DNA of 64,000 nucleotides from positions 1,844,385 through 1,908,384 of the forward strand of contig NZ_CP072392.1 of the NCBI RefSeq assembly GCF_017742835.1, in the 5' to 3' direction. The stretch is from Aquabacter sp. L1I39 (GTDB lineage: Bacteria; Pseudomonadota; Alphaproteobacteria; Rhizobiales; Xanthobacteraceae). This document shows positions 35,168 to 49,848 of this stretch, piece after piece. The translations under genes and the position numbers were made by a program. Positions within the stretch are counted from its first letter, which is position 1, and the number at the start of each line of letters is the position of its first letter. The notes beneath the pieces were generated by a model. That model saw only the letters and a program-made list of their open reading frames with translations, did no database searches and was not told the DNA's origin.

Positions 35168-35485
35168 TCAGCGGCTCCGGCGGGCGACCACGCGCACGGG
35201 CTGAAGCGCAGGCCGCGCGGGAAGCCGAAGCGTGGCGCGCCGTCCACCCCGCCCGCCGTCCTGGCGCTCGGTCATCAGCATGACCGCGAAGCCCATCTGG
35301 GCACTGGCGAAAGTCAGGCCCGTGGCGAAGGTCAGGATGGCCAGAGCCAGCACGCCATCGGCGGAGGACTGGAGCAAGGTGCCGAGCCCATGGACGTCAA
35401 TGGCGACCAGCGCACCGACGAACACCACCGCCACGGCAAAGCCGATGGCAGCGTGACGGGCCAGGAAGACCACCAAACGGGGCAT
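35168..35485 (-). CDS. Small two-helix inner-membrane protein of unknown function
   Basis: 105 residues from ATG 35485, which has AAGGAGA five bases upstream (longer in-frame starts lack this). Two hydrophobic helices: IGFAVAVVFVGALVAIDVHG and GVLALAILTFATGLTFASAQ, then a very basic C-terminal tail rich in Arg. I do not recognise it. Stand-alone; divergent from the TetR gene. Confidence 0.6.
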   Translation of the reverse strand: MPRLVVFLARHAAIGFAVAVVFVGALVAIDVHGLGTLLQSSADGVLALAILTFATGLTFASAQMGFAVMLMTERQDGGRGGRRATLRLPARPALQPVRVVARRSR

Positions 35486-35685
35486 GGCATTCTCCTTCAT
35501 CGCATCGGCCCGGAGGCGGCGCGCAAGCGAAATGACACGGGAATGGTGCGCCCTTCGGGCCGGTGTGTCCATGGCCCTTTGGGCGCAAGCCGCGACAAGC
35601 TGATCCAGATTGGGGTCAAATCCCGCCATTGTGAACCCGCAGAAATTCCGCGCAGCTTTGACCTGTCGCAAAGGGCCGGGGGGTC

Positions 35686-35714
35686 TGGTATGTTAATGAC
35701 TGACGAGTCAGTCA
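35686..35714 (+). promoter_or_regulatory. Extended -10 promoter and TetR operator of the exporter operon
   Basis: TGGTATGTT (35686-35694) is an extended -10 element. Immediately after it lies a perfect palindrome TGACTGAC-GA-GTCAGTCA (35697-35714), the usual form of a TetR-family operator. The expected transcript start falls inside the palindrome, so the bound regulator would block initiation. Confidence 0.8.
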
Positions 35715-35728
35715 GTGAGAGTGCGGAC

Positions 35729-36391
35729 ATGCCGCATCCGGAAGGTGACGCGGGCAAGGTCTCTCGGCGGGCCCGGCCGGCCCACGGCCCCGAGCAGCGG
35801 GCGGCGCGCCGCCAGGACATCCTGAAAGCGGCGCTGGAGGAATTCACCCGCGCGGGCTTCGGTGCCGCGCGGCTGGAAGACGTGGCGCGTGCCGCGGGCG
35901 TCGCCAAGGGCACGCTCTATCTCTACTTCCCCAACAAGCAGGCTTTGTTCGAGGGGCTGGTGAAGGAGAATATCGCCCCGGTCATGGCCGATGCGGCGGA
36001 ATTGCTGCCCCATTTTCCCGGCACCACCCGCGACCTGGTGCGGCTGCTGGCCGACATGCTGGTGGCTCGCGTGCTTCAGGGGAGCGCCGCCGGCGTGCTG
36101 CGCCTGATGATCGCCGAGGGTGCGCGCTTCCCTGAACTCGCCGCCTTTCACCATCGGGAAGTGGTCTCCCAGACCTTGCCGCTGGTGCGCGCCGTCATGG
36201 AGCGGGGCCTCGCCCGCGGCGAAATCACCTCCGATGCGGCGATGCGCTTTCCGCAGATGGTGTTCGCGCCCGCCTTAACCGTCCTGGTCTGGAACTCCCT
36301 GTTCGGCGCCTTCGATCCCATCGACGCCGGGGCCTTCGTGGACACCTATCTGGACACGCTGCTGCGCGGCCTCGGGGAGCGGGCGCCATGA
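35729..36391 (+). CDS. TetR/AcrR-family repressor (CecR-like) of the ABC exporter operon
   Basis: 220 residues from ATG 35729; the in-frame ATGs at 35690 and 35696 lie in or before the operator and would precede the transcript start. Helix-turn-helix: RQDILKAALEEFTRAGFGAARLEDVARAAGVAKGTLYLYFPNKQALFEGLV. The ligand domain is variable (AGVLRLMIAEGARFPELAAF). The stop overlaps the HlyD start (ATGA). The gene set TetR, HlyD, ABC ATPase, ABC-2 permease parallels E. coli cecR-ybhGFSR, which affects drug sensitivity. Autoregulation through the palindrome is likely. Confidence 0.88.
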   Translation: MPHPEGDAGKVSRRARPAHGPEQRAARRQDILKAALEEFTRAGFGAARLEDVARAAGVAKGTLYLYFPNKQALFEGLVKENIAPVMADAAELLPHFPGTTRDLVRLLADMLVARVLQGSAAGVLRLMIAEGARFPELAAFHHREVVSQTLPLVRAVMERGLARGEITSDAAMRFPQMVFAPALTVLVWNSLFGAFDPIDAGAFVDTYLDTLLRGLGERAP

Positions 36392-37356
36392 GGGCCCGCC
36401 TCGGATCCGCTCTCGCCCCTCTCGCCCTCGCCCTTGCGCTGCTCGCCGGCTGTTCGCGGGCGCCGGAAGGGGAGTTTTCCGGCTATGTGGAGGGCGACCT
36501 CCTCTTCATCGGGCCGCAGGAAGCGGGGCGTGTACTGCGCCTGCCGGTGGCGGAAGGCACGAAAGTGACCGCTGGCACGGTCTTGGCGGAGCTGGAACCG
36601 GACATCCAGTCGGCGGACCTGGCCGCTGCTGCCGCACTGCTCGGTGAGGCGCAGGCCAAGCTCGCCCGCCTCAAGGCCGCCACCCAGCGCCCGGAAGAAA
36701 TCGCCATCCTGGAGGCGAGCGAGCGGCGGCTCACCACCGCGCTTGATCTCTCGCGCATCGAACTCCAGCGCCAGAAGACCCTGGTGCCCAAGGGCGCCTC
36801 CTCCCAGGCCAATCTCGACACGGCCCAGCACAGCTATGACCAGGCGGTGGCGAGCCTCGACGAGGTGCGCCGGCAGATCGATGTGGCCCGTATCGCCGGC
36901 CGCGACGAGGACATCGCCGCCGCCGCCGCCGCCGTGCGCAGCGCGGCCGCCAATCGCGACGCGGCGCAGATCCGCCTCGACCGCCGCATCCTGAAGGCGC
37001 CGCGGGAGGGCACGGTCCAGACGCTCTATTTCCGCCCGGGCGAACTGGTGCCCGAGGGCAAGCCGGTGGTGTCCGTGCTGCCGCCCGACCTCATCAAGGT
37101 GCGCTTCTTCGTGCCGGAGGCCCAGTTGCCGAAGGTGGCGCTGGGGGCGAACGTGGCCGTCCAGTGCGACGGCTGCCCGCCCTTGACCGCGCAGGTCACC
37201 TTCATCGCCGACAGCGCGGAATATACCCCGCCCGTCATCTATAGCCGCGAGGAGCGGGCCAAGCTCGTCTATCTGGTGGAGGCGCGGCCCTCCGATCCCG
37301 CCGCCGCGCGCCCCGGCCAGCCGGTGACCGTGCGCCTTGCGGAGGGCAAGCCGTGA
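36388..37356 (+). CDS. HlyD-family periplasmic adaptor (YbhG-like), probable lipoprotein
   Basis: 322 residues. Lipobox LLAGC with acylated Cys22, then the biotinyl-lipoyl-like half-motifs (EAGRVLRLPVAEGTKVTAGT and RRILKAPREGTVQTLYFRPG) flanking a long coiled-coil hairpin (about 75-205), then the beta-barrel domain (KVRFFVPEAQLPKVALG). Bridges the ABC-2 exporter and an outer-membrane channel, which is not encoded here. Overlaps both neighbours by four bases. Confidence 0.9.
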   Translation: MRARLGSALAPLALALALLAGCSRAPEGEFSGYVEGDLLFIGPQEAGRVLRLPVAEGTKVTAGTVLAELEPDIQSADLAAAAALLGEAQAKLARLKAATQRPEEIAILEASERRLTTALDLSRIELQRQKTLVPKGASSQANLDTAQHSYDQAVASLDEVRRQIDVARIAGRDEDIAAAAAAVRSAAANRDAAQIRLDRRILKAPREGTVQTLYFRPGELVPEGKPVVSVLPPDLIKVRFFVPEAQLPKVALGANVAVQCDGCPPLTAQVTFIADSAEYTPPVIYSREERAKLVYLVEARPSDPAAARPGQPVTVRLAEGKP

Positions 37357-38333
37357 CCGTGCCGGACCCCATCGCCATCGAGGTGGAGGGGCTGTCCAAG
37401 AGCTTTGGCGGGCGCCGGGTGGTGGATGACCTGACCATGCGGGTGCGGCGGGGCCAGATCTACGGCTTCCTCGGCCCCAACGGCTCGGGCAAGACCACCA
37501 CCATCCGCATGCTGTGCGGCCTGCTCACCCCCGATGCCGGGCGCGGCACATGCCTTGGCTACGACATCCTGACCCAGGCGCGGGAGATCCGCAGCCATGT
37601 GGGCTACATGACCCAGCGTTTCTCTCTCTATGCGGACCTCTCCGTGCGGGAGAATCTGGAATTCGTCGCCCGCCTTTATGGTGTGCCCCGGCCGGAAGCC
37701 GCCGCGCGGGCGGCGCTGGAGCGGCTCGGCCTGGAAGGGCGTGGGCGGCAATTGGCGGGGGAATTGTCGGGCGGCTGGAAGCAGCGCCTTGCGCTCGGCG
37801 CCTGCATCCTGCCCCAGCCCCAGCTTCTCCTGCTGGACGAGCCCACCGCCGGCGTCGACCCCAAGGCGCGGCGGGAATTCTGGGCGCAGATCCATGCCTT
37901 GGCGGCCGAAGGTCTCACCGTGCTGGTCTCCACCCATTACATGGACGAGGCGGAGCGCTGCCACGAGATCGCCTATGTGGCCTATGGGCGCCTGCTCGCC
38001 CAGGGGCGGGTGTCCGACGTGATCGCCGCCTCTGGCCTCGCCACCTATACGGTGGAGGCGACGTCGGCGACCATCGACAGCGCCGCGCTGGCCGCGCTCG
38101 CACGGGAGCTGGAGGCGGCGCCGGGCATTGGCATGGTCGCCCCCTTTGGCACCTCCCTCCATGTCTCCGGTCATGACCGTTCGGCGCTGGAGGCGGCCAT
38201 AGCGCCGTTCCGGGAGCGGCCGGGCCTCGCCTGGCGGGCGGATCAGCCCACTCTGGAGGATGTGTTCATCGACCTGATGGGTCAGGCCTCCGACAATATG
38301 GCCGCGCCACCCGGCGCGGGCGCGGCGTCATGA
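37353..38333 (+). CDS. ABC-2 exporter ATP-binding protein (YbhF-like)
   Basis: 326 residues from a GTG that overlaps the hlyD-like stop (GTGA). Single nucleotide-binding domain: Walker A GPNGSGKTT (41-49), signature LSGGWKQRLALG, Walker B LLLDEPTAGVDP, switch His in STHYMDEAERC. E. coli YbhF has two such domains in one chain; here there is one, followed by about 90 C-terminal residues typical of drug exporters. Stop overlaps the permease start (ATGA). Confidence 0.9.
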   Translation: MTVPDPIAIEVEGLSKSFGGRRVVDDLTMRVRRGQIYGFLGPNGSGKTTTIRMLCGLLTPDAGRGTCLGYDILTQAREIRSHVGYMTQRFSLYADLSVRENLEFVARLYGVPRPEAAARAALERLGLEGRGRQLAGELSGGWKQRLALGACILPQPQLLLLDEPTAGVDPKARREFWAQIHALAAEGLTVLVSTHYMDEAERCHEIAYVAYGRLLAQGRVSDVIAASGLATYTVEATSATIDSAALAALARELEAAPGIGMVAPFGTSLHVSGHDRSALEAAIAPFRERPGLAWRADQPTLEDVFIDLMGQASDNMAAPPGAGAAS

Positions 38334-39457
38334 GGGAGACGCTCGGCTTCCTGCGGCGGGTCGCCGCCATGGTGCGCAAGGAATTCATCCAGCTGCGGCG
38401 GGACCGGGTGACGTTCGCCACCATGATCTCCATCCCGCTGCTGCAACTGGTGCTGTTCGGCTATGCCATCAACACCACGCCCCGCAACCTGCCCACCGCG
38501 GTGCTGGTGCATGAGAATAACGAGGTCACCCGCGCCATCCTCGCCGCCATTCGCAACACCGACTTCTTCGCCTTCACGGCGGAGGCTGCGAGCGAGCAGG
38601 ATGCCGAGCGCATGATCCGCTCCGGCGAGGTGCTGTTCCTGGTGGAGATCCCCGCCGGCTTCGAGCGCGCGCTGCGCCGGGGCGAGACGCCGCAGATGCT
38701 GGTGGCGGCGGACGCCACCGATCCGGTGGCTTCGGCGAACGCACTGGGCGCCCTCTCCGGCCTCGTCTCCACCGCGCTCACCCGCGCGCGCTTCGTGGAC
38801 GCGCAGGGTACGGCGCCCTTCGAGATCGTCCAGCACCGGCGCTACAATCCCGCCGGCGACAGCCAGCTGAACATCGTGCCGGGTCTGCTCGGCACCATCC
38901 TCACGATGACCATGCTCATCTTCACCGCCCTCTCGGTGACCCGTGAGGTGGAGCGCGGCACCATGGAGAGCCTGCTCTCCATGCCCATCCATCCAGTGGA
39001 AATCATGCTGGGCAAGATCATCCCCTATGTGCTGGTGGGGGTGATGCAGGCGGTGCTGATCCTGGCCGCCGGCATGGTGCTGTTCTCCGTGCCGCTGGAA
39101 GGCTCGCTGATCCTGCTGACGGGGGTGACGCTCATCTTCATCACCGCCAACCTGTCCATCGGCTACACCTTCTCCACCCTGGCGCAGAACCAGCTCCAGG
39201 CGGTGCAGATGACCTTCATGTTCTTCCTGCCCAACATCCTGTTGTCGGGCTTCATGTTTCCTTTCGCGGGCATGCCGGTCTGGGCGCAGTGGATCGCCGA
39301 GGGGCTGCCGCTCACCCATTATCTGCGCATGGTGCGCGGCATTCTGCTGAAGGGCGCCACCGCCACCGACCTGACCTTCGACACCGGCATGCTGGTGGTG
39401 CTCATGCTGGTGGCCATGGCCATTGCGGTGGCCCGCTTTCGCCAGACCCTGGACTGA
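38330..39457 (+). CDS. ABC-2 type exporter permease (YbhS/YhhJ-like)
   Basis: 375 residues. One N-terminal helix (LLQLVLFGYAINTTP), a large extracytoplasmic domain (about 45-175), then five helices with the ABC-2 phrases TREVERGTMESLLSMPIHPVE and LLSGFMFPFAGMP...GLPLTHYLRMVRGI. Only one permease gene is present whereas ybhSR encodes two, so a homodimer is likely. Last gene of the operon. Confidence 0.9.
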   Translation: MRETLGFLRRVAAMVRKEFIQLRRDRVTFATMISIPLLQLVLFGYAINTTPRNLPTAVLVHENNEVTRAILAAIRNTDFFAFTAEAASEQDAERMIRSGEVLFLVEIPAGFERALRRGETPQMLVAADATDPVASANALGALSGLVSTALTRARFVDAQGTAPFEIVQHRRYNPAGDSQLNIVPGLLGTILTMTMLIFTALSVTREVERGTMESLLSMPIHPVEIMLGKIIPYVLVGVMQAVLILAAGMVLFSVPLEGSLILLTGVTLIFITANLSIGYTFSTLAQNQLQAVQMTFMFFLPNILLSGFMFPFAGMPVWAQWIAEGLPLTHYLRMVRGILLKGATATDLTFDTGMLVVLMLVAMAIAVARFRQTLD

Positions 39458-39754
39458 CCGGCCAGGGGTCCGACGGCCGCTCCTGGTGAGCGTCACGGTT
39501 TCGCCCCAATCTGGCCCTGCTTCCGCCCGGCTTCGGGCAGCCCGCGACATTCCTGCACACCTGACGCGCCGGGGAAGGTAAACCCCTTGGGGCGCCTGGA
39601 AACCCAGGCCTCCGCAACGTCCCGGGTGCGGCAAAGGCGCCACATCCGGGGCTTCCCTACCTTTGATTTGCATCAAAGCCAAAGAACAGCGCGGCCCCAA
39701 TTTGGCCCAAAGCCAGCAGAGCGGTCGGTGCCGCTCCGCGAACGGGGTTGACCA
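39458..39754. other. Control region upstream of ccoN
   Basis: 297 bases without a gene. It contains the FNR/FixK box (separate entry), a weak hairpin GCCTGG-AAAC-CCAGGC (39594-39609), and two near-identical 15-base copies (14 of 15 matching) of GCCCCAAT(C/T)TGGCCC at 39503-39517 and 39694-39708. The second copy covers the expected -10 area of the oxygen-regulated promoter. Confidence 0.5.
39663..39676 (+). promoter_or_regulatory. FNR/FixK anaerobox of the cbb3 oxidase cluster
   Basis: TTGAT-TTGC-ATCAA is a perfect match to the FNR/FixK/FnrN consensus TTGAT-N4-ATCAA. It is centred at 39669.5, 85 bases before the ccoN ATG. A class II arrangement would place the start of transcription near 39711. 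Confidence 0.9.
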
Positions 39755-41410
39755 ATGTCCATCGTGCAGACACCGATCAAGAGGATGACGGCCGGCGAGT
39801 TCGGCCTGCTGATCGTCTTTGCGGCGCTCGGCTTCCTGTCCATCGTGGTGGCGGCGAAGGCCCATACAACGGCCTATTCGTTCCACGCCTTTCTTTTCGC
39901 GGCGGCCTCCGTCGCGGCGGTGTTCGCCATCGGCAACCGCTACATGGACCGCCCGGCGGAGCTTCCGCCGCAGACCATCAACGGCAAGCCCAACTACAAT
40001 ATGGGCCCGGTGAAGGTTGCGACCCTCGCCGCGGTGTTCTGGGGCCTGGCCGGATTCACGGTGGGCGTGGTGATTGCCCTCCAGCTGGCCTTTCCGTTCC
40101 TGAATTTTGATCTGCCCTGGACCGCCTTCGGCCGTCTGCGGCCGCTGCACACCTCGGCGGTGATCTTCGCCTTCGGCGGCAATGTGCTGATCGCCACCTC
40201 CTTCTATGTGGTCCAGCGCACCAGCCGCGCGCGCCTTGCGGGTGACTTGGCCCCGTGGTTCGTGGTTCTCGGCTACAATTTCTTCATCCTGATCGCCGGC
40301 ACGGGCTATCTGCTGGGCATCACCCAGGGCAAGGAATATGCGGAGCCGGAATGGTATTCCGACCTGTTCCTGACCGTGGTGTGGGTGACCTATTTCGCGG
40401 TCTTCCTGCTGACGATCCTGAAGCGTGAAGAGCCCCACATCTATGTGGCGAACTGGTTCTACCTCGCCTTCATCGTCACCATTGCGGTGCTGCACCTCGG
40501 CAACAACACCACCATCCCGGTCTCCGTCTTCTCGCCGAAGTCCTACATCGTGTGGTCGGGCGTGCAGGACGCCATGGTCCAGTGGTGGTACGGCCACAAT
40601 GCGGTGGGCTTCTTCCTGACCGCGGGCTTCCTGGCGCTGATGTACTACTTCATCCCCAAGCGCGCGGAGCGGCCGGTCTATTCCTATCGCCTGTCCATCG
40701 TGCACTTCTGGGCCCTGATCTTCCTTTATATCTGGGCCGGCCCGCACCACTTGCACTACACCGCCTTGCCGGACTGGGCGCAGACGCTGGGCATGACCTT
40801 CTCCATCATGCTGTGGATGCCCTCCTGGGGCGGCATGATCAACGGCCTGATGACGCTCTCGGGCGCCTGGGACAAGCTGCGCACCGATCCGATCATCCGC
40901 ATGATGGTGGTCTCGGTGGCCTTCTACGGCATGTCCACCTTCGAAGGCCCGATGATGTCGGTGAAGGCGGTCAACTCGCTTAGCCACTATACCGAGTGGA
41001 CCATCGGCCACGTGCATTCCGGTGCGCTGGGCTGGGTCGCCTACATCTCGTTCGGCGCCATCTACTGCCTGGTGCCCTGGCTGTGGCACAAGCGTGAGAT
41101 GTATTCCATGAAGGCCATCAACTGGCACTTCTGGGTCTCCACGCTCGGCATCGTGCTCTACATCTGCTCCATGTGGGTGGCGGGCATCCTTCAGGGTCTG
41201 ATGTGGCGTGCCTATACGGCGCTCGGCTTCCTCGAATACTCGTTCATCGAGACCGTCGAGGCCATGCACCCGCTCTACGTGATCCGGGCCCTCGGCGGCA
41301 TCCTGTTCCTGGCCGGTGCCGTGATCATGGCCTGGAACGTCATCATGACCATCCGCAGCCCCGAACTCGCCACCGAGGCGAACACGGCGGCGCTTGCCCC
41401 CGCCGAATGA
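39755..41410 (+). CDS. ccoN: cbb3-type cytochrome c oxidase subunit I
   Basis: 551 residues. Catalytic subunit holding haem b and the haem b3-CuB site; reduces O2 at very low concentrations in the inner membrane. At least 12 helices with the histidine ligands in [46 protein letters not shown] and [13 protein letters not shown]. The extra N-terminal helix is as in rhizobial FixN. First gene of the cco cluster, controlled by the upstream anaerobox. Confidence 0.97.
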
Positions 41411-41421
41411 CGGAGACATCC

Positions 41422-42171
41422 ATGTCGACCAAATCCGCTTCGATCTGGAGCAAGCACGCCATCTTCGAGAAGCACAGCTATTGGCTGCTTCTCGGCGTCC
41501 TCTTGGTGATCTCCGTAGGTGGGCTCGTGGAGATCGTGCCCCTCTTCTACCTCAAGAGCACCATCGAGACCGTGTCGGGCATCCGCCCGTACACCCCCCT
41601 CGAGCTGGCCGGACGCAACATCTATGTGCGTGAGGGCTGCTATAACTGCCACAGCCAGATGATCCGTCCTCTGCGCGACGAGGTGGAGCGCTACGGCCAC
41701 TACTCGCTGGCGGCCGAGAGCATGTACGACCACCCCTTCCAGTGGGGCTCCAAGCGCACCGGGCCGGATCTGGCCCGCGTGGGCGGCAAGTATTCGGACC
41801 AGTGGCAGCTGGACCACCTGAACAACCCCCGTTCGGTGGTGCCCGCCTCCATCATGCCCGGCTATCCGTTCCTGGCGCGGACCAAGCTCGACGCCAAGCA
41901 CATCGCCGACGACATGAAGGTGCTGCGCATCGAGGGCGTGCCCTATACGGACGACATGATCGCCAACGCCCAGGCGGACCTGCGCACGCAGTCCACCACC
42001 GATGCCGACAATATGGATGCCCTCCAGGCCCGCTATCCCAAGGCGCAGGTGCGTGACTTCGACGGCAATCCCGCCGAGCTGACCGAGGCCGACGCGCTGA
42101 TCGCCTATCTGCAAATGCTGGGCACGCTGGTCGACTTCAAGCTCTACGACAACAAAGCCAACGTGAGGTAG
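41422..42171 (+). CDS. ccoO: cbb3-type cytochrome c oxidase subunit II (monohaem)
   Basis: 249 residues from ATG 41422 (GGAGA upstream); ATG 41407, overlapping the ccoN stop, is the alternative. One N-terminal membrane helix and a periplasmic cytochrome c domain with CYNCH (Cys73-His77) and distal Met region [11 protein letters not shown]. Passes electrons from CcoP to CcoN. Confidence 0.97.
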
Positions 42172-42176
42172 CTCCC

Positions 42177-42338
42177 ATGCGCGACCTCTATATGAGCCTT
42201 GCGAGCTTCGCACAGACCTGGGGCCTGCTGCTGTTCTTCTTCGGCTTCCTCGGTGTCATCGCCTATGCCTACTGGCCCTCGAAGAAGCAGAAGAAGAACT
42301 TCGACGAAGCGGCCCAGATCCCGCTGAAAGAGGATTGA
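42177..42338 (+). CDS. ccoQ: cbb3-type oxidase small subunit CcoQ
   Basis: 53 residues, five bases after ccoO. One membrane helix (TWGLLLFFFGFLGVIAYAYW) followed by PSKKQKKNFDEAAQIPLKED; the conserved YWPSKK-type junction is the CcoQ/FixQ signature. It stabilises the interaction of CcoP with the CcoNO core. Ends four bases before the ccoP GTG. Confidence 0.93.
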   Translation: MRDLYMSLASFAQTWGLLLFFFGFLGVIAYAYWPSKKQKKNFDEAAQIPLKED

Positions 42339-42342
42339 TCCC

Positions 42343-43224
42343 GTGAGCACCGCGCACGACAGCCATGACGGAGCCGTGGACACCGCAACGGGCGTCTCCA
42401 CCACCGGCCACGAATGGGACGGCATCCGTGAACTGAACAACCCCCTGCCGCGCTGGTGGCTGTGGGTGTTCTACGCCACCATCGTGTGGGCCTTCGGCTA
42501 TTGGGTCCTGTACCCGGCCTGGCCCCTGATCTCCAGCCACACCACCGGCCTCTTGGGCTGGAATTCCCGGTCGGCGGTGGCGATGCAGCTTCAGGATCTC
42601 CAGGCGCTGCGCGCCGAGACCAGCATGCGCCTGACCAACGCTTCGCTGGAGGAGATCGAGAAGACCCCCGATCTGCTCTCGCTCGCCCGCGCCGAGGGAC
42701 GGGTGGCCTTCGCCGACAATTGCGCGCCCTGCCATGGGGCGGGCGGCGGCGGCGCCAAGGGCTTCCCCAACCTCAATGACGACGACTGGCTGTGGGGCGG
42801 CACGCTGGCCGACATCCAGCAGACCATCACCCACGGCATCCGCTCCGGCGACGATGAAGGCCATCAGGGCAACATGACCCCCTTCGGCGGGGTCCTCTCC
42901 AAGGCGGACATCTCGGCGGCGGCCGACTATGTGCTCTCCTTGTCGGGGGCCGGTCCCGCCGACACGCCGAGCGCCAAGAAGGGGGCCGCCGTGTTCGCCG
43001 CCAATTGCGCCGTCTGCCACGGTGCCGACGGCAAGGGCAAGCAGGAGCTGGGCTCCAAGAACCTCACCGACGGCATCTGGCTCTATGGCGGCGACAAGGC
43101 CACCATCATGCAGACCATCACCAATGGCCGCGGCGGCGTGATGCCCGCCTGGGCCGGGCGCCTGTCGCCCACCACCATCAAGGCGCTCACCGTCTATGTG
43201 CATACGCTCGGCGGCGGCCAATAG
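42343..43224 (+). CDS. ccoP: cbb3-type cytochrome c oxidase subunit III (dihaem)
   Basis: 293 residues from a GTG. Cytoplasmic N-terminus with HEWDGIRELNNPLPRWWLWVF leading into a membrane helix, then two periplasmic cytochrome c domains with CAPCH (Cys about 127) and CAVCH (Cys about 222). Accepts electrons from soluble or membrane cytochromes c. Confidence 0.97.
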   Translation: MSTAHDSHDGAVDTATGVSTTGHEWDGIRELNNPLPRWWLWVFYATIVWAFGYWVLYPAWPLISSHTTGLLGWNSRSAVAMQLQDLQALRAETSMRLTNASLEEIEKTPDLLSLARAEGRVAFADNCAPCHGAGGGGAKGFPNLNDDDWLWGGTLADIQQTITHGIRSGDDEGHQGNMTPFGGVLSKADISAAADYVLSLSGAGPADTPSAKKGAAVFAANCAVCHGADGKGKQELGSKNLTDGIWLYGGDKATIMQTITNGRGGVMPAWAGRLSPTTIKALTVYVHTLGGGQ

Positions 43225-43451: not shown

Positions 43452-44918
43452 ATGACCGCACCTGCCGTGAAGACGAAGACCCCGCCCGCCGCGGCCAGCG
43501 CCGACGATGCGCCGCTCTATGAGGCCCGGCGCCAGATCTATCCCCAGAGCGTGCGCGGACGCCTGCGCACCATCAAGTGGATCGTCCTCGCGGTCACGCT
43601 CGGCATTTATTACTTCCTGCCCTTCGTACGCTGGAACCGGGGCCCGGGCGCGCCCGACCAGGCGGTGCTGATCGATTTCCCCGCCCGCCGCTTCTATTTC
43701 TTCTTCATCGAGATCTGGCCGCAGGAATTCTACTATGTCGCCGGCCTGCTGATCCTGGCCGCCCTCATCCTGTTCCTCATGAACGCGGTCGCCGGGCGGG
43801 TGTGGTGCGGCTATCTGTGTCCGCAGACGGTGTGGACCGACCTGTTCATGGCGGTTGAGCGCCTCATCGAGGGCGACCGGCGCCAGCGCATGGTGGAGGA
43901 TGCCGGCCCCTGGACGCTCGACAAGTTCGCCCACAAGCTGATGAAGCATTCCGTCTGGCTGCTCATCGCCTGGTGGACGGGCGGCGCCTGGGTGCTCTAT
44001 TTCGCCGACGCGCCCACCCTGGTCCATGAGCTGGCCACCTTCCAGGCGCCCACGGTGGCCTATGTGGCCATCTTCACCTTGACCTTCACCACCTATTCGC
44101 TCGCCGGCCACATGCGCGAGCAGGTGTGCACCTATATGTGCCCCTGGCCGCGCATCCAGGCGGCGCTGACCGACGAATATGCCCTGAACGTCACCTATCG
44201 CTATGATCGTGGTGAGCCGCGCGGCTCGGTGAAAAAGGCCGCCGCCGCCCGAGCCGAGGGCAAGCCAGCCGGGGATTGCATCGACTGCCACCAGTGCGTG
44301 AATGTGTGCCCCACCGGCGTCGACATCCGCCAGGGCCTGCAACTGGCCTGCATCCAGTGCGGCCTGTGCATCGACGCCTGCAACAACATCATGGACAAGG
44401 TGGACCGCCCGCGCGGCCTCATCGCCTATGAATCGGAAGCCAATCTGGAGGCGCGGGTGGCCGGCAAGCCGCCGGTCCGCCGCATCGTGCGGCCGCGCAC
44501 CATCCTCTACACCGCCCTCATCGTCTTCGCCGGCGGCCTGATGCTGTTCACCCTGGCGAACCGCGCGAACGAGGGGCTGAACGCCATCCACGACCGCAAC
44601 CCCTTGTTCGTGAAGCTGTCCGACGGATCGCTGCGCAACGCCTATACGCTGCGGCTCATCAACAAGGACCTCGCCGAGCGTGGCTTCATACTGACCGCCA
44701 CCGGCGTGCCCGGCGCCACCCTCTCGGTGGTGGGCACGGAGGGCGGCCCCGAGGGCGAGGTGGTGACGGTGGGCCCGGACCAGACCCGCGAGGTCCGGGT
44801 CCTTTTGACCACCAAGGATCGTCTCGCCCCCGGCACCTCTCTGCCGGTGACGTTCCAGATCCGCGACCAGAAGAGCGGGGCGACCGCCACCGCCGTCGAC
44901 CACTTCATCGGCCCCTGA
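43452..44918 (+). CDS. ccoG: cbb3 oxidase assembly ferredoxin-like membrane protein CcoG
   Basis: 488 residues. About five membrane helices around a cytoplasmic ferredoxin domain with CIDCHQCVNVCPTGVDIRQG and CIQCGLCIDACN (two 4Fe-4S clusters), preceded by the NapH-like WCGYLCPQTVW and YMCPWPRIQ segments. The C-terminal Ig-like FixG domain lies in the periplasm. CcoG is reported as a cupric reductase that supplies Cu(I) during oxidase assembly. Leads the ccoGHIS group. Confidence 0.95.
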   Translation: MTAPAVKTKTPPAAASADDAPLYEARRQIYPQSVRGRLRTIKWIVLAVTLGIYYFLPFVRWNRGPGAPDQAVLIDFPARRFYFFFIEIWPQEFYYVAGLLILAALILFLMNAVAGRVWCGYLCPQTVWTDLFMAVERLIEGDRRQRMVEDAGPWTLDKFAHKLMKHSVWLLIAWWTGGAWVLYFADAPTLVHELATFQAPTVAYVAIFTLTFTTYSLAGHMREQVCTYMCPWPRIQAALTDEYALNVTYRYDRGEPRGSVKKAAAARAEGKPAGDCIDCHQCVNVCPTGVDIRQGLQLACIQCGLCIDACNNIMDKVDRPRGLIAYESEANLEARVAGKPPVRRIVRPRTILYTALIVFAGGLMLFTLANRANEGLNAIHDRNPLFVKLSDGSLRNAYTLRLINKDLAERGFILTATGVPGATLSVVGTEGGPEGEVVTVGPDQTREVRVLLTTKDRLAPGTSLPVTFQIRDQKSGATATAVDHFIGP

Positions 44919-44936: not shown

Positions 44937-45461
44937 ATGGGCAAGACCGCAACGCAACTGCAAAGCCAACGCCCCGGCCGGGCATCACGCGAACTCACGG
45001 GGCGCATGGTGCTGGCCATGTTCCTGGGCTTTTTCGGGGTGGTGATCGGCGTCAACGTTGTGATGGCCCGCTATGCGGTCAGCACTTTCGGCGGCGTGGA
45101 GACGGAAAGCTCCTACAAGGCCGGCCTCGCCTTCCGCTCGGAGGAGGACGCCGCCGCCCGCCAGGGCGCGCTGGACTGGGCCGTGAACGTGGCCATCGCG
45201 CCCTCCGACACCTCTGATCGTCGTCTGACGGTAGAGGTGAAGGACGCCGCCGGCCGGCCGCTCAACGGCCTTGAGGTGCGCGCCGAGTTCACTCACCCCA
45301 CCGATGCCCGGCAGGACGTGGAGATCGCCCTGGTCGGCCTCGGCCAGGGTCGCTATGGCGGCGAGGTGATGGCGCACCGGGGCCAGTGGGACCTGGTGCT
45401 TGATCTTGCGCAAGGCGGGCAGCGCCAGTTCCGGTCCAAGAACAGGATCGTCATGAAGTAG
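44937..45461 (+). CDS. ccoH: cbb3 oxidase assembly protein FixH/CcoH
   Basis: 174 residues, GGAGGA before the ATG, 18 bases after ccoG. Single N-terminal helix (LAMFLGFFGVVIGVNVVMA) and a periplasmic FixH domain (ETESSYKAGLAFRSEEDAAA; GGEVMAHRGQWDLVLDLA). Needed for stable association of the oxidase subunits in species studied. Confidence 0.93.
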   Translation: MGKTATQLQSQRPGRASRELTGRMVLAMFLGFFGVVIGVNVVMARYAVSTFGGVETESSYKAGLAFRSEEDAAARQGALDWAVNVAIAPSDTSDRRLTVEVKDAAGRPLNGLEVRAEFTHPTDARQDVEIALVGLGQGRYGGEVMAHRGQWDLVLDLAQGGQRQFRSKNRIVMK

Positions 45462-45500
45462 CCGTCGGTGCCGCGCGCGGCCCGGCAAGGTCGAAGCGAA

Positions 45501-47738
45501 ATGTCCGAGGCGGTCGATTATTCCATTTTCCTGGCGCGGGATGCGCAGGGCCACGCCGAGATGAGCCTCGCCGTGGATGGAATCGACTGCGCGGCCTGCA
45601 TCGGCGACATCGAGAACGGCATCCGCGCCTTGCCTGGCGTGGTGAAGGCCCGCCTCAACTACTCCACCCATCGCCTGACCGTCGCCTGGGACGGGGAGGG
45701 GGCACCGGCGCAGGTGGTGGACCGCCTCCAGGCGCTCGGCTATCGCGCCCATCCCTTCGCCGGCCGGGCCGAGGAAAGCGAGGCCCGCCACGCCCAATGG
45801 CTGCTGCGGTGCCTGGGGGTCGCGGGCTTTGCGGCCATGAATGTGATGCTGCTTTCGGTCTCCGTGTGGTCGGGCAATGTCACCGATATCACGCCCGAGA
45901 CCCGCGATCTCTTCCACTGGATCTCCGCGCTCATCGCCCTGCCGGCCGCTGCCTATGCGGGCCAGCCCTTCTTTCAGAGCGCCTATCGCGCCCTGCGCAC
46001 CCGCCGGCTCAACATGGACGTGCCCATCACCATCGGCGTGATCCTGGCGCTCGGCATGTCGGTGGTGGAGACCGCGCTCCACCAGGAGCATGCCTATTTC
46101 GACAGCGCGGTGATGCTGCTCTTCTTCCTCCTGGCCGGGCGCTATCTGGATCATGAGGCCCGCCGGCGCACCCGTGCCGTGGCCGGCAATGTGGCCGCGC
46201 TCCGGGGTGAGATGGCCCACCGCCTCGGCCCCGATGGCGTCCCCGTGCGCGTGCCGGTGCAGGCGCTCGCCGCCGGCGACCATATCCTGGTGGCCGCGGG
46301 CGAGCGGATCGGCGCCGACGGCGTGGTGGCCTTCGGGGCCTCGGCGGTGGATGAGGCGCTCGTGACGGGGGAGACCTTGCCCCGTCCGGTGGGGTCCGGT
46401 GCGCCCGTCTATGCCGGCAGCCTGAACGGCGCGGGCGCCCTGACCGTGAAGGTCACGGCGGGCGGCGAGGGCACGTTGATCGACGACGTGCAGCGCCTGC
46501 TGGACGGCGCCACCAGCGCCCGCAATTTCTATGTGCGCCTCGCCGACCGGGTGTCGCGCCTCTATGCGCCCATGGTGCATCTCACCGCACTCGTTTCCGC
46601 CATCGGCTGGCTCCTCCTGGGGGCGGGCCTGCACCATGCGGTCATGATTGCCGTGGCGGTGCTCATCATCACCTGCCCTTGCGCCCTGGCGCTGGCGGTG
46701 CCGGTGGTGCAGGTGGTGGCCACCGGGCGCCTGTTCCGCGCCGGCCTGCTCATCAATGCTGGCGACATGGTGGAACGCCTCGCCATCGTCGACACGGTGG
46801 TGTTCGACAAGACCGGCACCCTGACCTTGCCCGAGCCCGAGCTGCGCCTGCCCGAGGGCGCCGACCCGGCGCTGGTGGCCGCCGCCGCGCGCCTGGCGCT
46901 GTCGAGCCGCCACCCGCTGGCGGTGGTGCTGGCGCGGCAGGCCGCCACGGCGCCGCTGTCGGAGGTCACCGAATGGCCGGGTCAAGGCATCAGCGCCCTC
47001 ATGGACGGGGTGGAGGCGCGCCTCGGCAGCCTCGCCTTCTGCGGTGCGCCGGCACCGGCGGACCTGCCGGCCACCGCCTCCCTCATCGCTTTCCGCCTGG
47101 GTGCCCGCACCCTGGTGGTGGGCATCGACCAGGGCCTGCGCCCCGACGCCGGCGAGGTGGTGGCGGGGCTGAAGGCGCGGGGCCTCGACGTGCGTATCCT
47201 GTCCGGTGACCGGCCCGAAGCGGTGGCTCCGGTGGCCGCGCATCTCGGCATTTCCGCGTTCGAGGCCGGCCTCAAGCCAGCCGACAAGATTGCGGCGATC
47301 AATGCCCTGAAGGCTGCCGGCCGCAAGGTGCTCATGGTGGGCGATGGCCTCAATGACGCGCCGGCCCTCGCGGCGGCGGATGTCTCCCTCTCCCCCGCCT
47401 CCGGCGCGGCGGTGACGCAGGCCCAGGCGGACGCGGTTTTCCTGGGCACGAGCTTGTCTCCGGTGGAGGCGGCCATCGACGGTTCGCGGGTGGCGCAGCG
47501 TCTCATGCGGCAGAACCTCGCCCTTGCCGTGCTCTACAATCTCGTTGCCGTCCCACTGGCGGTGCTGGGCCATGTGACGCCTCTGGTGGCGGCGCTGGCC
47601 ATGTCCGGCTCTTCCATCCTGGTCACGCTCAATGCCCTGCGCGCCGCCCGTTTCGGCCGGCCGGTCATTTCGGTGCCCCAGCAGAGCCCCCCCGGCGCGG
47701 ATGTGGTTCCGGCGGGGGTGGAGGAGGCGACCGCATGA
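45501..47738 (+). CDS. ccoI: Copper-exporting P1B-type ATPase FixI/CcoI
   Basis: 745 residues from ATG 45501 (the ATG-like start at 45468 adds 11 basic residues). N-terminal heavy-metal domain with GIDCAACIGDI (Cys30, Cys33), eight membrane helices with the metal-site CPC near residue 391, phosphorylation Asp in DKTGTLT near 436, and the hinge GDGLNDAPAL. Delivers Cu(I) to the periplasm for the CuB centre of CcoN rather than for detoxification. Stop overlaps ccoS (ATGA). Confidence 0.95.
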   Translation: MSEAVDYSIFLARDAQGHAEMSLAVDGIDCAACIGDIENGIRALPGVVKARLNYSTHRLTVAWDGEGAPAQVVDRLQALGYRAHPFAGRAEESEARHAQWLLRCLGVAGFAAMNVMLLSVSVWSGNVTDITPETRDLFHWISALIALPAAAYAGQPFFQSAYRALRTRRLNMDVPITIGVILALGMSVVETALHQEHAYFDSAVMLLFFLLAGRYLDHEARRRTRAVAGNVAALRGEMAHRLGPDGVPVRVPVQALAAGDHILVAAGERIGADGVVAFGASAVDEALVTGETLPRPVGSGAPVYAGSLNGAGALTVKVTAGGEGTLIDDVQRLLDGATSARNFYVRLADRVSRLYAPMVHLTALVSAIGWLLLGAGLHHAVMIAVAVLIITCPCALALAVPVVQVVATGRLFRAGLLINAGDMVERLAIVDTVVFDKTGTLTLPEPELRLPEGADPALVAAAARLALSSRHPLAVVLARQAATAPLSEVTEWPGQGISALMDGVEARLGSLAFCGAPAPADLPATASLIAFRLGARTLVVGIDQGLRPDAGEVVAGLKARGLDVRILSGDRPEAVAPVAAHLGISAFEAGLKPADKIAAINALKAAGRKVLMVGDGLNDAPALAAADVSLSPASGAAVTQAQADAVFLGTSLSPVEAAIDGSRVAQRLMRQNLALAVLYNLVAVPLAVLGHVTPLVAALAMSGSSILVTLNALRAARFGRPVISVPQQSPPGADVVPAGVEEATA

Positions 47739-47896
47739 ATGTCCTGCTCTATCTCGTCCCCCTGGCTCTTGGCCTTGGCCTGGCCGGCCTCTTCGCCTTC
47801 CTCTGGAGCCTGAAGAGCGGACAATATGAGGATCTGGACGGCGCCGCCGTGCGGGTCCTCTCCGACGACGACCTCACGGAGGAGTCGCGCAAATGA
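47735..47896 (+). CDS. ccoS: cbb3 oxidase maturation protein CcoS
   Basis: 53 residues, start overlapping the ccoI stop by ATGA. One membrane helix (PLALGLGLAGLFAFLWSLKS) with the CcoS signature SLKSGQYEDLDGAAVRVL, then an acidic tail. Required for insertion of haem b and CuB into CcoN in species studied. Its own stop overlaps the next gene by ATGA. Confidence 0.93.
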   Translation: MNVLLYLVPLALGLGLAGLFAFLWSLKSGQYEDLDGAAVRVLSDDDLTEESRK

Positions 47897-49017
47897 GGCG
47901 TGCGGCCCGCATCGGCGAACCGCGGGCGGGCATGCTGGTCTGCGTGTGCGACCCGCAACTGGACGTCCCGGCCAACGACAATCGCGCCCGGCCCGTGCCG
48001 CGCCTTGCTCTGGTGCTGGGCTTCGCCTTCGCCGTGCTGGCCCAGACTCTGGCCTCCGGCCTCCTGCCGCTGGCCGGCGCCATGCTCGCTCCCGTTCCGG
48101 CCCTCACCCCCGTGCCCTTCGCGGCCATGATGGCCGGGGCCTTGCTCGCCTCCTTTCCCGCCTCCTTCCTTGGCGACACATTCGGCCGGCGCACGGGCTT
48201 TGCGCTGGGCGCCTCGCTCGGCATTGCCGGTGGCCTGCTGCTGGCGTTGGGGCTGATGCAGCGCCAGTTCGTCTGGGTGAGTCTGGCCGCCCTCTGGCTC
48301 GGCATGGCGCAGGGCTTTTCCTTCTTCTACCGGCATGAGGCGGCGGCCTCCGCTGGCCGGCCCTCGGCCGCTGCGGCCGGGGTGCTGGCGGGGGGAATTC
48401 TGGCAGCGCTGGCCGGCCCGACGCTCGCGGGGGCGGCCGAATGGCTGTTCGCCCCCTTCTTCCTGGTAGGCTCCGCCCTCCTGGCGGCGCTCGCCCATAC
48501 CTGCGGCCTCGCGGTGGCGGTCTGGTACGCGCCCAATGCCGCGCCCCGCGTCTCCCCCGCGCGTCCCGCGCCGCTCAAGGCCATCGCGCTGCCCACCCTG
48601 GTGGGGGCGCTCGCCTGGGGCGGCATGAGCTTCGTCATGGCGGACGCCCCCCTGGCGCTCATGGGATGCGGCATCGGCGAGGGCGCCGTATTTGGCTTCC
48701 TGGCGCTGCATGTGGCGGCCATGTATGTGCCGGCGGCCGGGATCGCCTTCATCGCCCATCGCGTGCCGGCGGTGCCACTGGCCTTGGGTGGGCTTGCCTT
48801 TGTGGTCGCCGCCATCCCCCTCATGCTCGCTGGCGAGACGGTGGTTCTGACCGCCGCTTTGGTGATGGTGGGGGCCGGCTGGTCGGTGGCGACCGTGGGC
48901 TGCACCGGCTGGCTCTATGCCGACCGGCCCCCCTCCCGCCTCGCCTTGGCGCTCCATGACGGCGCCCTGTTCGGCGCCGCCATTCTGGGCGCGCTGGCCT
49001 CGGGCCGCCTGCTCTGA
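47893..49017 (+). CDS. ccoA: MFS-type copper importer, CcoA-like
   Basis: 374 residues, 11-12 helices, start overlapping the ccoS stop (ATGA). It lacks a strong general MFS signature except GDTFGRRTGFALG, so it could pass as an unassigned MFS protein. The second half carries MSFVM (Met245, Met249) and HVAAM (His273, Met277). CcoA of Rhodobacter, which imports copper for cbb3 oxidase, has essential MxxxM and HxxxM motifs in two adjacent helices with the same 28-residue offset between the first Met and the His. Position at the end of the cco cluster supports this. Odd feature: a Cys-Val-Cys pair (17-19) in the short N-terminal tail. Confidence 0.8.
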   Translation: MRRAARIGEPRAGMLVCVCDPQLDVPANDNRARPVPRLALVLGFAFAVLAQTLASGLLPLAGAMLAPVPALTPVPFAAMMAGALLASFPASFLGDTFGRRTGFALGASLGIAGGLLLALGLMQRQFVWVSLAALWLGMAQGFSFFYRHEAAASAGRPSAAAAGVLAGGILAALAGPTLAGAAEWLFAPFFLVGSALLAALAHTCGLAVAVWYAPNAAPRVSPARPAPLKAIALPTLVGALAWGGMSFVMADAPLALMGCGIGEGAVFGFLALHVAAMYVPAAGIAFIAHRVPAVPLALGGLAFVVAAIPLMLAGETVVLTAALVMVGAGWSVATVGCTGWLYADRPPSRLALALHDGALFGAAILGALASGRLL

Positions 49018-49086: not shown

Positions 49087-49848
49087 ATGGCCTCCATCTT
49101 CTCCCTGTCCGGACGCACGGCGCTGGTGACTGGCGCTGCTGCCGGTCTCGGCTTCGAGATCGCCCGCGGCCTCGCGCAGGCGGGGGCCTGCGTGGTGTTG
49201 AACGGGCGCCGTGCGGAGCCGCTCGCCGCCGCCCGCGAAACCCTCCTCGCCGAAGGCATCGATCCCGTCCAGGTGCAACTCGCCGCTTTTGATGTCTGCG
49301 AGGAAGGTGCGGTGGCGCGCTTCGTGGCGGAAGGGCCGGCCATCCATATCCTGGTCAACAATGTGGGGCTCAGGGACCGCAGGCCGCTGGCGGAGCTGGA
49401 TGGCCCCGCCTTTCGCGCCATGCTGGAGACCAATCTGGTGGCTCCCGCTCTGCTCGCTCGGGCACTGAGCCCGGCCATGGCGCGGCAGGGCTACGGGCGG
49501 ATCATCAACATCACTTCCATTGCCGGCCCCATCGCGCGGGCGGGGGATGCCGCCTATACGGCGGCGAAAGGTGGCCTTGCGGCGCTCACACACGCCTTGG
49601 CGGCGGAGCTTGGGTCCGCCGGGATCACCGTGAACGCCATCGCCCCCGGCTTCTTCGCCACCGCTCCCAATGCCGCCATGGTGGCCGACCCCGAGATCGG
49701 CGCCTGGCTGTCGCGGCGCACCTCGCTCGGCCGCTGGGGTCAGCCGGAGGAGATTGCCGGAGCCGCCATCTTCCTCGCCTCGCCGGCCGCAAGCTATGTC
49801 ACCGGACATATGCTCAGCGTGGATGGCGGCTATCTTTCCCATTTCTGA
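49087..49848 (+). CDS. Short-chain dehydrogenase/reductase (gluconate 5-dehydrogenase type)
   Basis: 253 residues. Classical SDR: TGAAAGLGFEIARGLA (NAD(P) loop), LVNNVGLRDR, catalytic Ser in INITSIAG, YTAAKGGL (YxxxK), and the C-terminal SYVTGHMLSVDGGY. The sequence resembles 3-oxoacyl-ACP reductases and gluconate 5-dehydrogenases. Substrate unknown. Separate from the cco cluster by 69 bases and probably its own unit. Confidence 0.85.
   Translation: MASIFSLSGRTALVTGAAAGLGFEIARGLAQAGACVVLNGRRAEPLAAARETLLAEGIDPVQVQLAAFDVCEEGAVARFVAEGPAIHILVNNVGLRDRRPLAELDGPAFRAMLETNLVAPALLARALSPAMARQGYGRIINITSIAGPIARAGDAAYTAAKGGLAALTHALAAELGSAGITVNAIAPGFFATAPNAAMVADPEIGAWLSRRTSLGRWGQPEEIAGAAIFLASPAASYVTGHMLSVDGGYLSHF

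Follow-up and report, generated by a model that had tools for sequence, protein, structure and literature searches.

A CcoA-like transporter at the end of the cbb3 oxidase cluster of Aquabacter sp. L1I39: an invariant N-terminal CxC tail and loss of cysteine pairs from CcoI in related operons

The analysed stretch of DNA, further referred to as the window, comprises 64,000 nucleotides of the genome of Aquabacter sp. L1I39 (contig NZ_CP072392.1, positions 1,844,385 to 1,908,384 of the forward strand); coordinates below are given relative to its first letter. It contains a cbb3 oxidase cluster with the gene order ccoN, ccoO, (ccoQ), ccoP, ccoG, (ccoH), ccoI, ccoS, followed by calT, all on the + strand. 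The genes ccoN (39755..41410, TIGR00780), ccoO (41422..42171, TIGR00781), ccoP (42343..43224, TIGR00782), ccoG (43452..44918, TIGR02745), ccoI (45468..47738, TIGR01511, a Cu P1B-type ATPase) and ccoS (47735..47896, TIGR00847) match NCBIfam models above the cut-off. The open reading frames at the places of ccoQ (42177..42338) and ccoH (44937..45461) gave no NCBIfam match at E 0.001 and were assigned by place and size, and by place, respectively; FixH is annotated at the place of the latter in other operons. CcoI carries the TCPC and DKTGT motifs and one N-terminal CxxC (residues 41–44), the metal site of the HMA domain, which reads CAAC and is encoded at 45588..45599.

The sequence TTGATTTGCATCAA (39663..39676, + strand), which we take to be a box of the FNR/FixK type, lies 78 bp before ccoN; nowhere else in the window is TTGATNNNNATCAA matched exactly. 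Among 68 loci in which ccoN was matched, the window being one of them, 66 have a TTGA-N6-TCAA box of this type ahead of that gene, and L069 and L096 lack it. The first-pass annotation had described the structural genes, copper import, copper export, cupric reductase and maturation factors as one continuous unit. The gene order and the common strand agree with this description, whereas the largest gap in the cluster, 227 bp between the ccoP and ccoG frames, leaves a single transcript putative.

Several other features surround the cluster. A gene for a FabG-like SDR (49087-49848) is located on the same strand 69 bp after calT. It was considered as a member of the unit, since CalT neighbours of the FabG-like kind are described in neighbourhood N2 (PMC6362234). 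Of the named loci, only those of Aquabacter sp. P-9, Xanthobacter and two MAGs have it at a distance of up to 2 kb. Upstream of the cluster, the region 35390-39457 on the + strand contains genes that by eye resemble those for a TetR-type regulator, an HlyD-like membrane fusion protein, an ABC ATPase and an ABC permease. On the minus strand, two long frames of 862 and 1045 aa (44985-47573 and 38282-41419) run antisense over the cbb3 genes and their neighbours, most likely because of the G+C content of 68%.

The calT gene (47893..49017, + strand) encodes a CcoA-like transporter of 374 aa with 11 predicted transmembrane (TM) helices. Its start lies in the ccoS stop, the two genes sharing ATGA, as had been noted at first pass. 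The MxxxM motif MSFVM (Met245/Met249, 48625..48639) lies in TM7 (helix 228-258 in the structural model) and the HxxxM motif HVAAM (His273/Met277, 48709..48723) in TM8 (helix 263-290), both on the + strand. The offset from the first Met to the His is 28, the value annotated initially, and the motif residues of Rhodobacter capsulatus CcoA, M233/M237/H261/M265 (PMC8406296), have the same offset. These are the sole M...M and H...M occurrences of the protein, and the spaced pattern arose in one of 20,000 shuffles of its residues.

The product matches no NCBIfam model, and its Pfam MFS_1 match is below the cut-off. The gene had been called a copper importer hidden as an unremarkable MFS gene, and the wording is fair, given the lack of an NCBIfam match, the weak Pfam match and the labels of its relatives, namely 'hypothetical protein', 'MFS transporter' and 'MFS family permease'. 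The four Met/His residues, with the offset of 28, are invariant in all 121 aligned proteins, that is, the query and 120 of 124 matches, as listed. The five most distant of these 120 relatives are CalT without an N-terminal CxC. A phylogenetic tree was built for 61 sequences: 18 of the operon-bound subfamily, 13 other motif-bearing CalT, and 30 MFS proteins from the genome of the window, the best 30 of its 52 MFS_1 matches. The motif-bearing proteins are separated from the 30 MFS proteins with SH-aLRT 100, and the operon-bound subfamily occupies one side of a branch with SH-aLRT 99; the tree comes from a short search, contains several long branches among the 30 MFS proteins, and its reference CalT bear the motif but are others than the experimentally tested ones. 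The spaced Met/His motif is absent from all 30 other MFS proteins. Placement in a drug- or sugar-exporter clade with unconserved Met/His residues, named at the outset as evidence against the annotation, did not occur. Of the claim of a CcoA-type importer, membership in the CalT family stands by motif, conservation and tree, whereas the equivalence to CcoA does not, as the protein belongs to a separate, shorter branch than the tested CcoA.

The AlphaFold model of the product, built from 49 sequences, has the MFS fold (mean pLDDT 85.9, pTM 0.87), and MFS transporters head the list of its PDB matches (E 8.7e-7 and weaker). The model contains 12 helix elements. We read the elements 126-143 and 145-153 together as a single, broken TM4, so that the count is 11 TM helices and TM12 is missing; hence the protein departs from the usual CalT trait of 12 TM helices. 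The part after the HxxxM motif has 97 residues, whereas the median for other CalT is 137. His148 (48334..48336, + strand) lies within YRH in the short helix 145-153, just behind TM4. This triplet occurs in 114 of 116 subfamily members, whereas 117 of 124 other CalT have YRF there; the rest show no clear match.

The arrangement of these genes was considered as a possible novelty, and this was dropped because reports of it date from 2018 and 2019. According to PMC5829832 (mBio 2018), Rhizobiales have CcoA homologues without helix 12 whose genes directly follow ccoNOQP-ccoGHIS. In PMC6362234 (Sci Rep 2019) the Rhizobiales group is named CalT 'cluster 11B' and presented as the only CalT adjoining cbb3 biogenesis genes; the published tree puts it with cluster 11, apart from the tested CcoA of cluster 1. 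Matched by description, the window gene agrees with every feature given there for cluster 11B: the place after ccoGHIS, the MxxxM and HxxxM motifs and the missing helix 12. The available passages of PMC5829832 and PMC6362234 contain no functional test of this group.

The tested R. capsulatus CcoA (cluster 1) is likewise an MFS protein with two motifs at an offset of 28, but has 12 helices instead of 11. Cys259 of the window protein (48667..48669, + strand; kept in 119 of 121 proteins) corresponds in position, 14 residues after the first motif Met, to R. capsulatus Cys247, which is among the functional periplasmic cysteines of CcoA (PMC8406296). By the published residue numbers, used here instead of an alignment with CcoA, R. 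capsulatus Cys49 and Cys367 have no counterpart. The cysteines of the window protein are at positions 17, 19, 204, 259 and 337, and by the topology read from the model only Cys259 is near the periplasmic end of a helix. Since only one of the three cysteines is kept, the thiol-exchange scheme of R. capsulatus cannot run here in the same form. The RfnT-like CalT (CalT-O, CalT-R and CalT-A) share the CalT motifs with the window protein and import copper in Escherichia coli; unlike it they do not adjoin cbb3 genes, cluster 11B being described as the only such CalT (PMC6362234). From the motif, its invariance and the tree we conclude that the operon-bound CalT very probably imports copper. It is not the sole candidate importer, since the same genome encodes a second CalT outside the window (locus L002, G000:C1:263905-264945). 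The latter is of ordinary length; it bears MNFLM and HVIAM, extends further at the C-terminus and lacks a CxC ahead of TM1.

Relatives were collected by scanning one genome per species, which yielded 107 places, and the analysis kept the best 80 of these. They come from Xanthobacter, Azorhizobium, Aquabacter, Ancylobacter, Rhodoblastus, Methylocella, Methylocapsa, Chelatococcus, Pseudochelatococcus, Bosea and bins. In 79 of the 80 loci ccoS directly precedes calT on the same strand, and the contig of the 80th begins inside calT. The 4-base overlap of the two genes is found in 62 of 80 cases (window and 79 loci), and the spacing ranges from −4 to +11 in all, measured from whichever start codon is closest to the end of ccoS, a choice that favours short spacings. 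One further sequence (P0109) appeared to be a ccoS-calT fusion and was rejected, as it reads as a frameshifted stretch. A plasmid of Methylovirgula sp. HY1 (L147/L155) bears a cbb3 cluster with a CxC-bearing CalT and, between ccoI and ccoS, an IS200/IS605 transposase gene and a TnpB gene. On a plasmid of Methylobacterium currus (L154:4870-6159) a gene for an unrelated, motif-less MFS protein overlaps ccoS in the same slot and is followed by ccmE.

Around 36 residues precede TM1 in the window protein. They contain the motif RAGMLVCVC (RxGxxxCxC; residues 11-19 with Cys17 and Cys19), encoded at 47923..47949 on the + strand. The loop DxFGRR at residues 95-100, which follows TM2, is presumably the inner MFS motif A. 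As this loop is then on the inner side and both ends of a typical MFS protein are inner (PMC8406296), the N-tail is predicted to be cytosolic. RxGxxxCxC occurs in all 80 loci that include the N-terminus (window and 79) and in six further tailed operons, that is, operons with a CxC-bearing CalT (one from a plasmid and five from the order-level sample described below). The entropy is zero at the R, the G and both C, whereas 23 of the 28 other places in the 32-residue stretch exceed 2 bits. Within the first 45 residues, CxC is present in 114 of 116 subfamily members, query included, the other two being one start-cut and one frameshifted sequence; it is present in none of 124 other CalT, a partial sample of which 119 were among the matches listed in one search. 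The tail has pLDDT below 50 at residues 1-12 and 14-27, and the model gives no contact of the tail with any site. The invariant CxC appears to be a feature, not found in print, that is layered on the already described CalT group. More precisely, the RxGxxxCxC tail and the loss of the CcoI CxxC considered next were not found in the open-licence PMC literature (main texts of published articles); 'CxC' is absent from the main texts of PMC5829832 and PMC6362234, and 'N-terminal' in the available passages of PMC5829832 concerns CopA and related ATPases.

We then compared CcoI from operons with and without a CxC-bearing CalT. The N-terminal CxxC of CcoI is lost in 20 of 82 tailed operons versus 2 of 178 operons without the tail, and is kept in the remaining 62 tailed operons, that of the window included. 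No N-terminal cysteine pair at all (CC, CxC or CxxC) is found in 19 of 82 tailed versus 0 of 178 untailed operons; Aquabacter spiritensis and Azorhizobium oxalatiphilum are examples. Cysteine pairs were sought in open frame reaching at most 64 residues upstream of the HMA segment, so that a chance pair in frame that is not translated may hide further cases in either group. All 20 CcoI without the CxxC keep TCPC and DKTGT, and their transporters keep the CxC; in one locus of this set (L093) the contig stops short of the Met/His motifs.

Besides the named loci, three samples contributed to these counts: a plasmid sample (10 loci of 97 matching records; one of them, L147, is tailed), a class-wide sample (69 of the places found in 192 genomes) and an order-wide sample (105 of the places found in 249 genomes; five are tailed). 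A ccoS match is present in 177 of the 178 untailed loci. Five loci with less than 900 bases after ccoI (L184, L282, L288, L292 and L328) are counted among the 178, and each side contains one pair of identical CcoI (L111/L230; L148/L192). Loci with a missing CcoI start (L053, L094, L098 and L104) or a missing CcoI (L076) were left out. In the untailed group, the CxxC loss occurs in 0 of 78 loci of the plasmid and class-level sets and in 2 of 100 of the order-level set. The latter two loci (L306 and L308), from two genera of one family, have lost the HMA CxxC and have a CC further upstream. They weaken the view that CxxC loss is exclusive to operons with the tail. A further idea, that a CC in the upstream part of CcoI (at the N-MBS1 place) excludes the CxC tail, was hinted at by the first 10 plasmid operons and was abandoned, as 37 of 79 loci counted as untailed (the tailed L147 included) lack the CC too.

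A naive Fisher test gives P of 1.4e-7 for CxxC loss (20/75 versus 0/78) and 6e-11 for the lack of any pair (19/82 versus 0/178), and both values are inflated by kinship among the operons. For 74 CcoI from the window and the named loci, of which 19 show the loss (two short rows were excluded), the tree requires four changes. On a tree of 260 CcoI the loss takes seven changes and forms eight maximal clades, six of them in the tailed group, which accounts for 16.4% of the branch length. The binomial P is 4e-4; for the total lack of a cysteine pair, five of five clades are in the tailed group (P 1.2e-4). This test takes branches as exchangeable and uses maximal clades on a FastTree tree. The independent-pairs test yielded two contrasts, too few to reach significance; it is without power because the tailed operons form nearly one group (two changes on the tree). 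It was the data themselves that first suggested the link between tail and loss, and the later test used further data of a like kind. Thus, the counts show a clear association that recurs within the tailed group, yet the tail has nearly one origin.

Cytosolic copper chaperones bear on the same question. In the genome of the window there are two HMA profile matches, namely CcoI and one 781-aa frame of ATPase size, and an HMA-type CopZ was not found among the HMA profile matches there. Among the matches listed, 16 of 24 genomes of the family with the subfamily have exactly two HMA matches. Short HMA frames, possible CopZ, were found among the matches listed in other tailed genomes (103 aa in G041 and 85 aa in G097). 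We considered whether absence of CopZ goes with the tail; many untailed genomes also have few HMA matches, and the observation was kept as support for the window's own genome only.

Sequence, conservation, gene order and the co-occurrence of tail and loss are what is observed, and the following scheme is proposed on this basis. Copper would enter via Met245, Met249, His273 and Met277 in TM7 and TM8, as family knowledge and conservation suggest. At the inner mouth, where CcoG, a cytosolic cupric reductase (PMC8475189), could supply Cu(I), the CxC of the N-tail would catch the ion. The tail would then load CcoI, either at its CxxC or, where this is lost, at its membrane site, and CcoI would export copper back into the periplasm to serve the CuB site of CcoN. 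With direct delivery to CcoI by the tail, the CxxC of CcoI would be less needed and could be repeatedly lost. The tail would thus do the job of CopZ and of the N-terminal HMA domain of CcoI, which hold cytosolic Cu(I) for the pump, but with a CxC on the importer's own tail instead of an HMA fold. PMC5829832 suggests that copper may pass from CcoA to CcoI, either directly or via a partner, and that the two proteins possibly form a complex.

We give an even chance to the explanation as a whole, that is, a CalT importer without helix 12 whose CxC tail hands Cu(I) to CcoI, in which import, copper binding by the tail and transfer are all inferred. The hand-off from the tail to CcoI, taken by itself, may well occur, with doubt slightly prevailing: tail-less CalT still import copper (PMC6362234), and glutaredoxin and glutathione, named as likely candidates among the donors besides CopZ from which CcoI can perhaps take copper, would need no tail (PMC8475189). 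The fuller version, a relay from importer to exporter with no free chaperone, in which the N-terminal site of CcoI is dispensable and has been lost several times, is put forward tentatively, as possible rather than probable.

The tail could serve another end. It might be a sensor or redox lock, its thiols binding copper or forming a disulfide and shutting a copper-importing CalT when copper suffices, the CcoI losses then reflecting a need for its N-terminal site that was relaxed for other reasons. Such a device would be in keeping with a short tail that the model shows as disordered and in which only R, G and the two C are strictly invariant, and the N-terminal sites of ATPases of this kind are described as regulatory, not essential (PMC8475189). 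However, a lock does not predict that losses of the CcoI cysteine pair cluster in tailed operons (19/82 versus 0/178), and we consider it unlikely, although worth keeping in mind. It is also rather improbable that the CxC binds another ligand, such as zinc, or serves only folding or contact with CcoS or CcoH while copper is imported as by any CalT. The calT-ccoS overlap fits a physical partnership with CcoS, but ccoS is also present in 177 of 178 untailed loci, and CxC is a known Cu(I) site, as is CxxC, in copper-trafficking proteins (PMC7558416).

An MFS protein for another substrate (a drug, a sugar or riboflavin), present in the operon by chance or by hitch-hiking, would account for the Pfam MFS_1 match being below the cut-off and has a parallel in the motif-less MFS gene behind ccoS in M. 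currus; further, CalT relatives were once named riboflavin transporters (PMC6362234). Against this stand the invariant motif, the common clade with CalT and the constant linkage, as well as the finding that RfnT-like CalT import copper and do not import riboflavin efficiently (PMC6362234), which makes such a substrate very improbable.

The preferred reading, a copper importer with a tail that hands Cu(I) to CcoI, has two layers. The first is a new member of a described group; the second is the CxC tail and the matching decay of the CcoI N-terminus, not found in print. For the route of imported copper to CcoI and the specificity of CcoA for the cbb3 oxidase, the invariant CxC names a concrete pair of residues. 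If the reading is true, the CalT tail would be a copper donor to CcoI in this lineage, and it should be indispensable where CcoI has no N-terminal cysteine pair, for example in Aquabacter spiritensis. Three RfnT-like CalT imported copper in E. coli and did not complement a ccoA mutant (PMC6362234). A relay from importer to exporter would help to explain why CalT are not interchangeable between species.
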